From NCBI GenBank assembly GCA_029257435.1, contig JARIBI010000249.1:1-64000 (forward strand): a stretch of DNA of 64,000 nt, given 5' to 3'. The notes beneath the pieces are model-generated. The model had not been told where the DNA came from. It did not search any database and was given only the letters and a program-made list of their open reading frames with translations. Numbering within the stretch: position 1 is the first letter of the stretch; every line of letters starts with the position of its first letter. Below, one piece after another: positions 52,129 through 59,408 of this stretch. Position numbers and translations under genes: made by a program. This DNA comes from Sporosarcina sp. (GTDB lineage Bacteria; Bacillota; Bacilli; Bacillales_A; Planococcaceae).

Positions 52129-55100
52129 TTAGAACAATGACAGCTGATTCATTTCCGGCAATCCCTCAAGGCAGCCGAGCGAATCCATGTATTCTGTAAT
52201 TGTTTTGGATACACGCCCACGGCGCTGAAGATCTTCCTTAGATAGGAATTCTCCGTCATCTCTAACTTCTACGATTGTTCTCGCAACGTTTGTACCTAGT
52301 GATGGAATGGCATTAAATGGCGGAATCAGTGTATTACCCTCGATGATGAATTCAGTAGCGGATGATTTATATAAATCAGGTTTAGCAAATGTAAACCCTC
52401 GTTCACACATCTCTAAAGCGATTTCAAGGACCGTAACTAGACTTTTTTCTTTCGGCGAAGCGTCTAAGCCTTTGTCATAGATTTCTTTCACTTTCACTCT
52501 AATAGACGCTGGACCTTTAATCATCGTCGCCAAATCGTAATCTGTTGCACGCACTGTAAAATACGTTGCGTAATACATAATCGGATGATGCACTTTGAAA
52601 TAAGCAATCCGGAGTGCCATGAGAACATAAGCAGCGGCGTGTGCTTTCGGGAACATGTACTTAATTTTTTTACAGGAAGCAATGTACCATGCCGGGACTT
52701 TGTTTTTCTTCATTTCCTCTTCAAATTCAGGTGTCAGTCCCTTACCTTTACGCACCGACTCCATTATTTTAAATGCAATGGCTGGTTCCAGGCCTTGATA
52801 GATTAAATACACCATAATATCGTCGCGACAGCCGATTACTTCTGCCAGTACACACGTTTTATTCTGAATCAATTCCTGTGCATTGCCGAGCCATACATCC
52901 GTTCCGTGAGACAATCCCGAAATTTGTATGAGCTCTGAAAATGTGGAAGGCTTTGTCTCTTCAAGCATCTGGCGAACGAATCGGGTACCGAACTCAGGTA
53001 CTCCGAGCGTTCCGGTTTTACAGTTAATTTGCTCTTCCGTTACACCAAGCGATTCTGTCCCGCTGAACAGTGCCATAACACCAGGATCGTCAGGCGGAAT
53101 CGTTTTAGGATCCATTCCTGACAAGTCTTCCAGCATTTTAATCATCGTCGGATCATCATGACCTAAAATATCGAGCTTGAGCAAGTTGTTATCAATGGAG
53201 TGGAAGTCAAAGTGAGTCGTCTTCCAGCTCGAACCGACGTCATCTGCCGGAAATTGAATCGGCGTAAAGTCATAGATCTCCATATTATCCGGTACTACAA
53301 TGATACCGCCCGGATGCTGTCCCGTGTTTCGTTTAACGCCTGTACACCCTTGAACGAGCCGATCGATTTCGGCACCCCGCAAATTGATGCCGTTATCGTT
53401 CATATACCCACGAACATATCCGTAAGCTGTTTTCTCAGCAACAGTTCCAATAGTTCCTGCTCTGTACACATAATCTTCACCGAAAAGTTCCTTCGTATAG
53501 TTGTGGGCATTTGCCTGATACTCACCACTGAAGTTCAAGTCGATATCCGGTACCTTATCACCGTTAAATCCAAGGAACGTTTCAAATGGGATGTCATGAC
53601 CGTCTTTTGTATACGGGATGTCGCAAGCCGGGCAATTTTTGTTTGGTAAGTCGAAACCTGAGCCGACTGAACCATCCGAGAAGAATTCAGACTGCTTGCA
53701 TGTTGGACAAACATAATGCGGCGGCATTGGATTCACTTCCGTAATTTCCATCATCGTCGCGACAAGAGAAGAACCAACCGAACCACGAGAACCAACCAAA
53801 TAACCATCATCCAATGACTTTTTGACCAACTTATGTGAAATCAAATAAATAACCGCAAACCCGTTTCCGATAATCGACTTCAATTCCTTATCAATACGGG
53901 CTTCAATTATATCCGGTAATGTCTCCCCATAGATGTCATGGGCCATCGTATACGTCAGCTGGCGTACTTCTTCGTCAGCCCCTTCAATTTCTGGAGGATA
54001 AAGATCATCTTTGATCGGCTTAACGTCTCCGACCCGATCGACAATACCCTGTGGATTATCTATGACAATCTGCTCTGCTGTCTCAGGTCCTAAGAACGCA
54101 AACTCTTCCAGCATTTCATCCGTTGTCCTGAAATGGACAGCTGGCAATTCGTGACGGTTCATCGGATTCGCACCACCTTGAGAACGGACAAGTACTTGAC
54201 GATACGCAGCGTCCGTTTCCTCAATGTAATGTACGTTTCCTGTTGCCACTACTGGGAGGCCTGTCTTTTTCCCCAATTTAATCATTTTACGCATGATATC
54301 TTCCAGGTTCCATTCATCACGAATGAGATCCAGTTCAATCAAATGATTATAAACCGGCTTAGGATGGAGCTCCAAGTAATCATAAAACCCGGCAACTTCC
54401 TCTGCTTCTTCAATCGACTTTTGCATAAGTGCTTCAAACACTTCGCCTTTGTCACAGCCAGAGCCGACGAGCAGCCCTTTTCTGTATTTCACGAGCAGCG
54501 ACCGCGGAATCCTCGGCACTCGATAGAAATAATCCATGTGAGAGAACGAAACTAGTTTAAATAAATTCTTCAGACCTTCATCACTGGTAGCAATCAGCGT
54601 GCAATGGTTAGGTCGTGAACGCTTGTACGCATCCCCTTCACCGACGTTTTTGTTAAAGTCATCTAACCAGGCAATCCCTTTTTCAGAGGCATCTTTCATC
54701 AATCTAACAAATAGATGCGCAGTCGCTTCCGTATCGTAAATGGCACGGTGATGCTGAGTCAAATCGATGTCGAACTTTTTAGCTAATGTATTCAGACGAT
54801 GATTTCTGAGATCCGGGTACAGCAAACGCGCCAATTCTAATGTATCGATTGTTGGATAATCTGCGGTTTCAATTCCTGCCTTTTTGCAGGATTCATAAAA
54901 GAAGCCCATATCAAACGAAGCATTGTGCGCGACTAAAATGGAGTCACCTATGAACTCTATGAAATCGACCATCACTTCAGAAACTTCAGGTGCATCTTTC
55001 ACCATATCATCTGTAATCCCTGTCAATTCGGTTGTGGTAGAAGACAAAGGATGATGAGGATTTGAAAAACGTTCAAATGTATCTATGATTTCCCCGTTTT

Positions 55101-56442
55101 TAACACGGACTGCAGCAAGTTCAATTACGGTATCGTACACAGCGGATAACCCTGTTGTCTCAACGTCAAAGACAACAAATGTATCTTCTTCGAGTAACCG
55201 ATGCTGTTCGTTATAAACGATTGGAACACCATCATCCACAAGGTTCGCTTCTAAACCAAACAACACTTTAATGCCATGCTTCTTCCCTGCATTATAGGCA
55301 TCCGGAAAAGCCTGCACGTTTGCATGATCTGTAATCGCAATAGCAGGATGACCCCATTTTGCTGCCTGTGCAACAAGTGCACCCGCAGAAGAGACCCCGT
55401 CCATTTGACTTAGCTTTGTATGTGTATGTAATTCAACACGTTTACGCCCTTCGGGTGCTGTGTCTTTTTTGACAACTGGTGCAACTTCCATAATATCTTG
55501 TGCCATCATGATTAAGTCACGAACGAATGTATCATTTTGAATACTTCCGCGGGCTCTTACCCATTTACCTTTCGTGAGTGCTTTCATGAGGTCTGCATCT
55601 TCATTATCACGTGAGAACATCTTCACAAGGATAGAGTCGGTATAATCCGTCACTTTTAAGGTTAATAATGATCGACCGCTTCTTAGCTCTCTCACTTCGG
55701 CATCGAAAACAAAGCCTTCGATTGTCACACGGCGCTCTTCATCTTGGATCTGCCGGATTTCCAACAACGGTTCATCACCGCGAATTGGTGTTCCGAAAGA
55801 AATAGGACCTGTAGGCGCACCACCTCCATCTTTCTTAGTCGTTTCACGCTGCTGCATTGCTTCCAATGCTTTTTGAGCATAAGCGACTTCCTCTGCCTTC
55901 CGTTCTTCGAAAAATGCAGCGCGGGCTTGTTCCTCTTCCACTGGTGCCTCTGAAATTGTGAACTCCGGATAGATCCGTGGGAAGCCAAAGGACTCATATG
56001 CATTTGAAATGAGATGACCATACTTATTTTTCAACGTTTGCTGTTGGACATCATTCAGACAGCAAACTGTAATTTTCTCTCCAGCAATCGTTGGTTTTTG
56101 TGATGTCAATGCTTCACGAATCGGCGGCGAAACTTCACCCAGCTCATCCATGATTGCAGGCCAGTAGGAAAGAATAGTTTCCGCCTCATGCACTTCCGTC
56201 TTTGTACTGATTTTTAAACGAATCGCAGCGATATTGGCAAAAGTCTGTTCCACACGTTTACGGAATAGTTGGAACACATCAAACGGTAACGGCTTTTGCA
56301 AGGTTGCTGTAAATTGCCAAACCCTCGACTTTTTAAAGATATCCACCCGCTCTAATTCAGCGTCCTGAAAATGAATAACAAACGCGTCTTCCGTTAATTC
56401 GATTTGCTGGAGCAGCATTGACATCTTTCTTTTAGCATCCAT
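52129..56442 (-). CDS. polC: DNA polymerase III PolC-type alpha subunit
   Basis: 1437 aa; [49 protein letters not shown] exonuclease; [19 protein letters not shown] polymerase. Confidence 0.97.
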
Positions 56443-56499: not shown

Positions 56500-58101
56500 T
56501 TACTCTGTTCTGAAAAACTCTTGAAGTTTTTCTGTCACTTCTTCTTTTCGCATGCTAACCGGCTCACCCATCATTCGGTACGTCACTTGGACCATTCCAG
56601 CTTCCGCGTCATCACCAACTACTATTTTTACCGGGACACCTAACTGGTTGGAAGTTTTACGTTTACTATCAGGGCTTACATTTCGATCATCAAACAGCAC
56701 ACGATATCGGTATCCATTCATGACAGAGTGAATCTCTTCTGCTAACTGCTGCTGACTTTCATTTTGAATATCCTCAATCAATAAATGTATATCATATGGA
56801 GCAAGTTGAATTGGCCATTTCAATCCCAGTGAGTCACTAAAGTGTTCAGCCGTCACTGCAAACAAACGGGTCAAATCTATATAATAATATCCCGTTAAAA
56901 TTTCAAGGGATTCCTTGTTTGCGACGTTAATCGTACTGAATACAGGTTCTGGTTCAATAATCCGTGCGAATGTGACTCCTTGACGAAATGTTAACGTACC
57001 ATTTCCATCAGGTGATGGCTCTCCTTCTTTCACAAGACGGATATCTACGTAATGGTCAACTGTAAAATCACGTTCCGGATTAACATTCAGCAGGAATGTA
57101 TCCTTTTCATTTGCGCCGCAAATCCCATTCACAATAGCAGAGACACCGTAGTCAGCATAAACCGGTAAACCGAATGGTAATTGGACAGGTCCAATCGTGT
57201 TCAGTTCAACACCTAACTCTTTCTTTACCTCACTCGGGGTCAATAAACTGATTATTGAACCCCCAAAAGCTTTAGCTAACTTCATTTCATTCATCTCATG
57301 ATCTCCACGAAGAAGAATGAGTGCAGGTTTCGAATCAATGTCATACAAAAATGCTTGAACTGTTTGAGAGCAGTCTAATCCAAGTGATTCAGCCAGCGGG
57401 GCAATTTCTTTGCCATGTCCACTTATCTTTTCAGCCTTTTTAAGCTTTTTGGATTCGATAGGTTCTTCTTGGAAAGCTTCCGCAAGCACAGCTTTTGACG
57501 TATACGATGAATCAGTACTTTGTGCAAAAAATTCTTTTCCACATTCGGAAAATGCAATAAATTCGTATTCAGTTCCCCCATTAGCGTTTTGTGATTCAAT
57601 TACGCGATAAGGGAGTCCGATTCTATTTGCAATAGTTGAAAAGACCGAAAATAACGTTTCTCCATTCTCTTTTGCTTCAACTGTATCAGTATGAAAAGAA
57701 TAGCCACTCACTAATGAATATTCTTTTGCATACAGAAGATTGGATTCCTGGATAGAATGCAGGGTTTTTCTGACATTCTGTTTGATGTGAAATACAGATA
57801 TCGGCAGCTGCTCGGAGCTAATAATTTCTTTTGCAATGAACGACAGCAAAATCATTTCATCTGATTTTCCTGTCGCATGTTCAAATTGTTCATATGGAAG
57901 ATCCACTTCAAGGACACGCGCTGACTCCATCTCCTCACGGATCACACGCTTTATATTTTCTAAAACTTTTCCGGCTAACGGAAAATACGCATACATGCCT
58001 TCAGATGTTTCTTGAACATAACCAGATTGAGTGAGAAGCTGATCTGCCAGACAGTTGTTTGAAGTTTCAGCAGCAGGTATGAATACACCTGATTGTTTCA
58101 T
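56500..58101 (-). CDS. divergent prolyl-tRNA synthetase-like protein at the canonical proS locus (possible pseudoenzyme)
   Basis: 533 aa intact ORF. ProRS-like N-term (MYAYFPLAGKVLENIKRVIREEME), INS-like region (LLRGDHEMNEMKL, GANEKDTFLLNVNPERDF, EGEPSPDGNGTL) and anticodon-binding-like C-term (GLKWPIQLAPYDIHLL, VLFDDRN), but ATHEE loop absent and motifs 2/3 altered. Confidence 0.85.
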   Translation of the reverse strand: MKQSGVFIPAAETSNNCLADQLLTQSGYVQETSEGMYAYFPLAGKVLENIKRVIREEMESARVLEVDLPYEQFEHATGKSDEMILLSFIAKEIISSEQLPISVFHIKQNVRKTLHSIQESNLLYAKEYSLVSGYSFHTDTVEAKENGETLFSVFSTIANRIGLPYRVIESQNANGGTEYEFIAFSECGKEFFAQSTDSSYTSKAVLAEAFQEEPIESKKLKKAEKISGHGKEIAPLAESLGLDCSQTVQAFLYDIDSKPALILLRGDHEMNEMKLAKAFGGSIISLLTPSEVKKELGVELNTIGPVQLPFGLPVYADYGVSAIVNGICGANEKDTFLLNVNPERDFTVDHYVDIRLVKEGEPSPDGNGTLTFRQGVTFARIIEPEPVFSTINVANKESLEILTGYYYIDLTRLFAVTAEHFSDSLGLKWPIQLAPYDIHLLIEDIQNESQQQLAEEIHSVMNGYRYRVLFDDRNVSPDSKRKTSNQLGVPVKIVVGDDAEAGMVQVTYRMMGEPVSMRKEEVTEKLQEFFRTE

Positions 58102-58145: not shown

Positions 58146-59408
58146 CTAGAAAAAGAACTTTTGAATATCGTTCCATGTAACAACAAGCATAAGTAACATA
58201 AGCAGCATTATTCCTACAAAGTGAACCATACCTTCTTTTTGACGATCAATCGGTTTACCGCGGACCGCTTCAAACAAGAAGAACAACAATCGTCCGCCAT
58301 CCAATGCTGGCAGCGGCAGAAGGTTCATAATTCCTAAGTTAATGCTCAATACAGCTGCCCAATTCATAAGATTGAAAATACCATACTGTGCGACTTCTTC
58401 TGTTGCTTTGTATATCCCTACTGGCCCGGAAAGTGCATCCAAAGTAAAATGACCAGTTACAAGCAAACCGAGCAACTCAAATATTTTCGCAATCCAGAAC
58501 CAGGTTTGCTGTGCGCCATACGCTATGGCTTTCAAAGGGTTCTTTTCGACTGGGCTTGTATAGAATACACCAATCTGACCTTGTTTAACTCCAGCTTCTT
58601 CCGTTTCTTTAGGTGTTACTTGCAGTGCTACCAGTTCACCATCACGTTCAACTTCTAAATCAATCGACTTACCGGCATTATCCTGTATGGTTCCTGTGAA
58701 TTCATTCCACGTCTTCACTTCCACACCATTTGAAGATTTTACAAAATCACCTTTTTGAACACCAGCTGCTTCCGCTGGACTATTATCTTGGACTTCTGTA
58801 ATTATTGGTTCATTTGTCGGAACCCCATTCAATAAACCGAGTGCAATAAAGATGAAGAACGCTAGAATGAAGTTAAAGACCGGTCCTGCGAGAATCGTTA
58901 GAAATCTTCCCATTAGTGGTTTTGAATCGAATTGACGATCTTTCGGCGCGATGAGTGTCTTCTGCCCTTTCTCGTGGATAACAGCAGTTCTTGACACTGG
59001 CAAACGAACCAAACTTCCTTCATCGTCGTATCCTTTAATAAATAATTTATCATTTAAATCGGCTTCTTCTGTTTCAAGGAAAAGCACATCCGGATTCGAC
59101 ACATTTGAATTCAAGTAAATCTTAGTAACTTCGTCTTGTGCATTTAAAATCAATCCGACACGATAGCCTGGCAGCAATTCGACGGTGTCAAAATCTTCGC
59201 CTGCCATTCGTACATATCCGCCAAGCGGAAGCAATCGAACCGTATAAAGTGTTTCACCTTTTTGAATACCGATTATTTTCGGTCCCATTCCAATTGCAAA
59301 TTCACGAACCATAATGCCCGCTCTCTTTGCAAATAAGAAGTGTCCAAACTCATGGAAAAAGACTAATGAGCCAAAAATAATTATAAACGAGATAACTGTC
59401 GTCGCCAT
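58146..59408 (-). CDS. rasP: RIP/site-2 protease RasP (RseP family)
   Basis: FFHEFGHFLFAKRAG zinc motif; PDZ domain; NLLPLPALDGGRL. Confidence 0.95.
   Translation of the reverse strand: MATTVISFIIIFGSLVFFHEFGHFLFAKRAGIMVREFAIGMGPKIIGIQKGETLYTVRLLPLGGYVRMAGEDFDTVELLPGYRVGLILNAQDEVTKIYLNSNVSNPDVLFLETEEADLNDKLFIKGYDDEGSLVRLPVSRTAVIHEKGQKTLIAPKDRQFDSKPLMGRFLTILAGPVFNFILAFFIFIALGLLNGVPTNEPIITEVQDNSPAEAAGVQKGDFVKSSNGVEVKTWNEFTGTIQDNAGKSIDLEVERDGELVALQVTPKETEEAGVKQGQIGVFYTSPVEKNPLKAIAYGAQQTWFWIAKIFELLGLLVTGHFTLDALSGPVGIYKATEEVAQYGIFNLMNWAAVLSINLGIMNLLPLPALDGGRLLFFLFEAVRGKPIDRQKEGMVHFVGIMLLMLLMLVVTWNDIQKFFF

Follow-up and report, generated by a model that had tools for sequence, protein, structure and literature searches.

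The position between polC and rasP in this Sporosarcina sp. is occupied by a gene that descends from a prolyl-tRNA synthetase (ProRS) gene and has lost many catalytic features of the enzyme. This raises the question of whether its product still charges tRNAPro and, if not, for what it has been kept. In the window, the 64,000-nucleotide stretch of contig JARIBI010000249.1 that was analysed, the gene proS1* (56500..58101, minus strand) is an intact open reading frame encoding 533 aa, with an ATG start and the stop codon included. It is flanked downstream by the polC frame (52129..56442, minus strand) and upstream by the rasP frame (58146..59408, minus strand), the latter serving also as the reference gene for the tree. 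The preliminary description had placed an uninterrupted 533-aa frame between these two genes, and its coordinates, strand, length and neighbours were all right. Profile comparison showed the window protein to be homologous to P-type ProRS (E 1.6e-91), with the Enterococcus faecalis ProRS 2j3l as its best solved relative (E 2.5e-87). The AF2 model of the protein gave a TM of 0.81 against 2j3l. Its mean pLDDT is 75, with values near 90 in the INS domain and most of the anticodon domain; the N-terminal half is poorly modelled, and therefore no pocket geometry is claimed. A first AF2 run with seven close relatives in the alignment (pLDDT 37) was discarded, and the second run added four distant ProRS. 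A scan of viral contigs with the window protein alone gave no match; an alignment query returned four ProRS loci, which served alignment depth only. The native polC–rasP locus, the full-length homology and the fold establish membership in the P-type family by descent: the protein is a bacterial P-type ProRS by vertical descent at its native locus. Its scores lie under both NCBI ProRS cut-offs (307.9 against 558 and 252.7 against 306.7 bits), and the Pfam class II core domain is also below cut-off (21.6 against 29.3).

The 533-aa form was found free of stop codons in ten genomes, including one single-contig genome (G065) at 97% identity, which shows that proS1* is not a product of chance or of sequencing error. 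This window type (lineage D) occurs in 10 of the 68 genomes of the genus searched, always intact and at 62–97% identity; the Sporosarcina relatives include S. aquimarina, S. koreensis and S. gallistercoris. Pairwise dN/dS was calculated according to Nei and Gojobori with our own script and, with the deep pairs saturated at silent sites, amounted to 0.07–0.12 in the window clade, compared with 0.03–0.08 for canonical ProS1 and mostly 0.03–0.07 for RasP. Purifying selection (dN/dS about 0.1) therefore acts on the protein despite its missing catalytic features. The intact frames in ten genomes and the dN/dS values rule out both an assembly error and a pseudogene; the window protein is not a pseudogene. 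The very fast stem branch of the clade, with 0.95 changes per site, could be expected of a decaying gene that is as yet unbroken. This is extremely unlikely, considering that all ten frames are intact over the whole range of identities, that dN/dS is low overall and that 267 columns are invariant in the clade. Conservation has also shifted along the protein. The N-terminal region (residues 1–76; 57874..58101, minus strand) is unusually conserved: deep clade pairs are 77–85% identical here, whereas canonical pairs matched for overall identity average 64%. The same comparison shows lower conservation in the clade for the TxE–motif 2 and YSFH zones. The low dN/dS together with the shifted conservation indicates that the protein works at something, and that this differs from the ancestral job.

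The former synthetic core (57457..57873, minus strand) has lost 97 of the 140 columns that are invariant in canonical enzymes. The motif changes noted in the preliminary description (FRDE to VRKT, RGREF to YAKEY, GCYGIGVSR to GYYYIDLTR, LGxxYS to EPEPVFS and TVKTLL to TVQAFL) were all read correctly. Its statement that the TxE loop is gone was an alignment slip: the loop (57856-57864) aligns as G-K-S-D-E-M, with Thr replaced by Ser and Glu kept in 10 of 10 relatives. What is deleted is a block of about 30 residues directly ahead of the loop (ELW..GRW..YG..DRH). The extent of the motif losses was likewise overstated, since the TxE Glu, the motif 2 Arg (57769-57771), the GREF Glu (57721-57723, in AKEY..GYSFH), the YSFH segment with its His (57691-57693) and the motif 3 Arg (56866-56868) are invariant in all ten clade members. 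The segment comprising the proline pocket and motif 3 (56827..56976, minus strand) carries Tyr and Asp in place of the motif 3 glycines (56875-56883), again in 10/10. The residues E142 and R144 are variable in the clade, and the GGxxGG loop and the LGxxYS pocket are lost; the protein thus lacks the motif 2, motif 3 and proline-pocket set of a functional P-type ProRS. R144 is needed for tRNAPro charging (PMC12152171). The invariant residues just listed, together with an equally invariant E154, would be compatible with a working but unusual ProRS in which catalytic residues are supplied from alternative positions. Against this stand the substituted glycines, the variable E142 and R144, the lost loop and pocket, the deletion ahead of the TxE loop and the presence of another ProRS in every such genome, which make a working enzyme very improbable. 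The window protein is very probably not a ProRS.

The preliminary description had supposed that a second ProRS gene lies elsewhere. The search of the organism's own genome (251 contigs, 97.5% complete) detected it. ProS2 (G000:C43, locus L004) is an E-type, that is archaeal/eukaryotic-type, ProRS of 479 aa; its TIGR00408 score of 580.1 bits (cut-off 437) and its length close to the 480 aa of this type assign it to the E-type enzymes. The same proS1*/ProS2 pair is found in the single-contig relative G065 (97% identity), so that the draft state of the genome is no explanation for the pair. The region upstream of ProS2 contains a T-box leader (101.8 bits, E 2e-23). Reading the alignment by eye gives its specifier as the proline codon CCU followed by A. 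No T-box reached the Rfam gathering score at the proS locus of the window. A T-box also lies ahead of ProS2 in further members of the window clade, in lineages C and E, in part of the canonical genomes and in two genomes that have lost ProS1; none was seen upstream of ProS2 in the lineage B genomes examined (loci L056, L057, L063, L066 and L073). The tRNAPro(UGG) that was found is ordinary, with the P-type elements C1:G72 and A73, and bacterial E-type ProRSs have been reported to charge P-type tRNAPro (PMC12152171). ProS2 is likely to perform the charging under the control of the proline T-box. The loading site of the ancestral gene may have been lost because this archaeal-type enzyme appears to do the charging. 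The loss of charging by the window protein, a vertical descendant of the bacterial ProRS, is strongly suggested by these features.

The gene in the window is not the single oddity that the preliminary description had pictured; the genus holds several parallel cases, of which it is one. In lineage B (15 genomes), the proteins mostly have an S-D-E loop, with a deletion within the GGxxGG loop and a motif 3 such as GSYSLGISR. Lineage C (4 genomes) has an RSSDQNS-like loop and has lost LGxxYS. In lineages E (2 genomes) and F (4 genomes) TxE is replaced, and the motif 2 Arg is changed to Lys and Gln, respectively. The ten genomes of lineage D, the window clade, carry the most altered form. A strongly degenerate P-type ProRS (IGPS-MDL, LQNI, FHARES) with an intact INS set was also found in G076 (L110), from another genus of the family, and an E-type ProRS is present alongside it. 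The genome G023 (L118), in which both ProS1 and ProS2 are split, was excluded from the counts; it is 83% complete with 9% contamination, and the splits are probably sequencing errors. On the RasP tree, the canonical label requires 7 changes, at least 5 of them forced by supported branches; lineage E adjoins the canonical G004, and lineage F lies among canonical rows. The synthetic-site residues of P-type ProRS have thus been lost independently in at least five lineages. Every lineage with a degenerate ProS1 also carries ProS2, and in the 15 family genomes where ProS1 was found and ProS2 was not, ProS1 is canonical (one gene is incomplete). The raw Fisher test, uncorrected for kinship, gives p 1e-4 (37/0 against 35/15). 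The kinship-corrected test, which has too few contrasts and no power, was not significant, and no statistical link between degeneration and ProS2 is claimed. Ten more distant genomes, most of them with both ProRS types, have a canonical ProS1, so the presence of both types need not lead to decay. Those proteins of lineages B, C and F that were tested score above the NCBI ProRS cut-offs despite their eroded synthetic-site residues, and such genomes are therefore annotated as having two ProRSs.

The distribution of the losses along the protein gives a clue to what has been retained. The 209 columns with an invariance of 97% or more among 51 canonical sequences were divided into core (140), INS (36) and anticodon domain (33). 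The proteins of lineages B, C, E and F and of G076 have lost 34–66 of the core columns, 1–3 of the INS columns and 0–1 of the anticodon-domain columns (Fisher p 2e-4 to 2e-12). All six residues of the INS catalytic set (K279, G331, G334, P335, D347 and H366) are retained throughout these proteins, apart from G015 of lineage F and a single changed His in G017 of lineage C. A core lost while the INS and anticodon domains are spared is what would be expected if the protein had been retained to proofread in trans. ProS2 has no INS domain. ProRSs lacking INS are expected to misacylate alanine, and the same is expected of the E-type partner. A PF04073 search of the own genome returned only the INS domain of the window protein and one YbaK-like protein elsewhere. 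We propose that, because ProS2 lacks INS, the old ProRS of several lineages lost its synthetic site but retained the domains for INS editing and for anticodon binding. It would then be a full-length factor that hydrolyses in trans the Ala-tRNAPro made by ProS2. For the sister lineages, which retain the Lys, the GxxGP loop and the His of an INS-type editing factor, trans-editing of Ala-tRNAPro is moderately well supported by these residues.

The window clade departs from this pattern, with 97/140 core, 8/36 INS and 13/33 anticodon-domain columns lost (core against INS, p 7e-7). The INS domain (56977..57456, minus strand; Pfam tRNA_edit 65 bits, cut-off 25.5) and the anticodon-binding domain (56503..56811, minus strand; HGTP_anticodon 38.9 bits, cut-off 21) both pass their Pfam cut-offs, and 20 of the 33 canonical-invariant columns of the latter are kept. 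The two frameworks are thus recognisable, as the preliminary description had it, but the damage to them had been understated. The window protein carries Gln (57355-57357), Asn (57199-57201) and Phe (57094-57096) at the sites of K279, G331 and H366, respectively; the GP of the GxxGP loop is retained. With these residues altered, the window protein is not classed as an INS-type factor for trans-editing of Ala-tRNAPro. K279, the position in TVQAFL, is numbered on the E. coli enzyme, and G331 and H366 as in the canonical relative G036. Across the clade, the K279 position is Q in six members, R in two, K in one and H in one, H366 has become F and G331 is lost. The anticodon-domain invariants R511, G513, V514, F516 and D518 are lost as well. 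The importance of K279 follows from the use of K279A as the standard editing-defective E. coli ProRS (PMC3973320) and from the contact of the equivalent Lys with A76 in ProXp-ala (PMC10164551). All four residues found at this position are polar, which leaves room for a weak or altered function. As a separate observation, the same INS residues have been lost independently in G015 (L116, lineage F), where K279 is Gln, G331 is His and H366 is Tyr.

The window clade most likely arose from such a trans-editing state and had its INS pocket rewritten afterwards. Its protein may now be an editing factor of altered specificity or weakened activity, or a non-hydrolytic tRNA binder; the residues point only weakly to altered editing or tRNA binding. 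Of the pseudoenzyme idea in the preliminary description, the second ProRS and the selection on a catalytically incomplete protein have held, and among the roles it left open, regulator, tRNA binder or altered trans-editing factor, the intact INS of the sister lineages favours an editing origin. Taken as a whole, the explanation that ProS2 charges tRNAPro, that the ancestral ProRS became a trans-editing factor in several lineages and that the window clade was altered further while still acting on or with tRNAPro has, in our estimate, an even chance of being right. Three points weigh against it. The missing INS-hydrolysis residues, the variable R144 and the lost anticodon invariants make the action of the window clade on tRNA uncertain. 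Editing may not be needed at all, since genomes without ProS1 have no replacement editing protein. The SxE loop and the motif 2 and motif 3 Arg are invariant, which is more readily explained by a pocket function that was retained than by editing alone.

This last point leads to a new, non-editing function, in which a different ligand occupies the old synthetic pocket or the dimer acts as a partner subunit or regulator, as HisZ does for HisG. The 76 derived residues fixed in 10/10, the conserved SxE, motif 2 Arg, E154, His and motif 3 Arg, the low dN/dS of the motif 3 segment in most window-clade pairs, the N-terminus conserved above expectation, the missing INS catalytic residues and the precedent of HisZ (PMC9437257) would all agree with it. 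The gene still sits at its ancestral polC–rasP site with no partner gene or change of context, however, and relative to the canonical columns the INS and anticodon domains remain the best-kept parts, so that we regard this function as possible but rather unlikely. Another way in which the protein could outlive both of its own activities is as an adaptor, the old dimer being a catalytically silent scaffold that presents tRNAPro to YbaK, a task that the E-type enzyme is perhaps unable to serve. The option comes from E. coli, where ProRS confers tRNAPro specificity on YbaK through a 2:1:1 ProRS–YbaK–tRNAPro complex (PMC6344894), and every window-clade genome has a free-standing INS-family protein, YbaK-like in the own genome. 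The tRNA-contact residues are eroded too (R144 variable, R511 lost), and an adaptor role is improbable. The idea that all window-clade genomes had gained another editing protein was rejected, as a further INS-type match exists in only five of the ten (G007, G010, G020 and G025, L189-L192; and G022). This additional protein has 165 aa and the conserved Lys, scores below the YbaK cut-off and is absent from G000, G065, G045, G008 and G066. G068, G086, G070 and G088 belong to genera of the same family that seem to have lost the P-type ProRS; each has at most one small INS-family protein, so that these genera may lack editing of Ala-tRNAPro. The own genome also contains a second ThrRS-like frame (L001, G000:C57:42781-46404; 456 aa) that starts near the catalytic core and lacks the long N-terminal editing region; C37 carries the full-length ThrRS frame of 648 aa.

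The preferred reading, an editing origin followed by further change, can be set against known systems. With the INS-containing P-type ProRS (E. faecalis 2j3l; TIGR00409, NF006625) the window protein shares locus, domain order, fold and descent, and it differs in falling below the cut-offs and in the loss of the motif 3 glycines, the LGxxYS pocket, the 30-residue block and the editing Lys and His, with E142 and R144 variable. Archaeal ThrRS-ed (NF011500, Ser-tRNA(Thr) hydrolase) is likewise derived from a synthetase and stands beside a separate charging enzyme; lineages B, C, E and F are probably in this state. ThrRS-ed is made up of hydrolytic and anticodon domains (PMC11295145), whereas here the dead synthetic core remains; the window clade has altered editing residues in addition. 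By analogy, the window protein probably functions as something one step further on than ThrRS-ed, a synthetase-derived accessory to a separate charging enzyme. ProXp-ala and other free-standing INS proteins have the INS fold in common with it and edit Ala-tRNAPro where ProRS has no INS; outside ProRS, INS-family proteins are single-domain (PMC11295145), and the window protein is without the conserved Lys. HisZ is a synthetase paralogue that does not charge and is kept under selection (PMC9437257), and non-charging is predicted for the window protein as well. In contrast to HisZ, no biosynthetic partner is seen, the protein is itself the copy at the ancestral locus and not a duplicate, and the charging enzyme is of a foreign type. 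Streptomyces ProRSx is also a second ProRS-type gene in its genome, but it is active on a special tRNA (PMC9437257), whereas here the ancestral copy is degenerate and the tRNAPro found is ordinary.

Our literature search, of incomplete coverage, returned no description of a dead ProRS paralogue or of such a ProRS, and no paper joining Sporosarcina with prolyl-tRNA synthetase. It is plausible, though we rate it somewhat short of even, that the ancestral ProRS has repeatedly become a full-length trans-editing factor with a dead synthetase core and that the window clade has left both synthetase and canonical editing chemistry for a new selected function. If so, one genus would offer a natural experiment with replicates: sister species carry the ProRS in canonical, half-lost and fully altered form at one locus, and the separation of charging from proofreading within a synthetase could be followed. 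Lists of essential genes or drug targets based on the native proS would then point to the wrong gene in these species.
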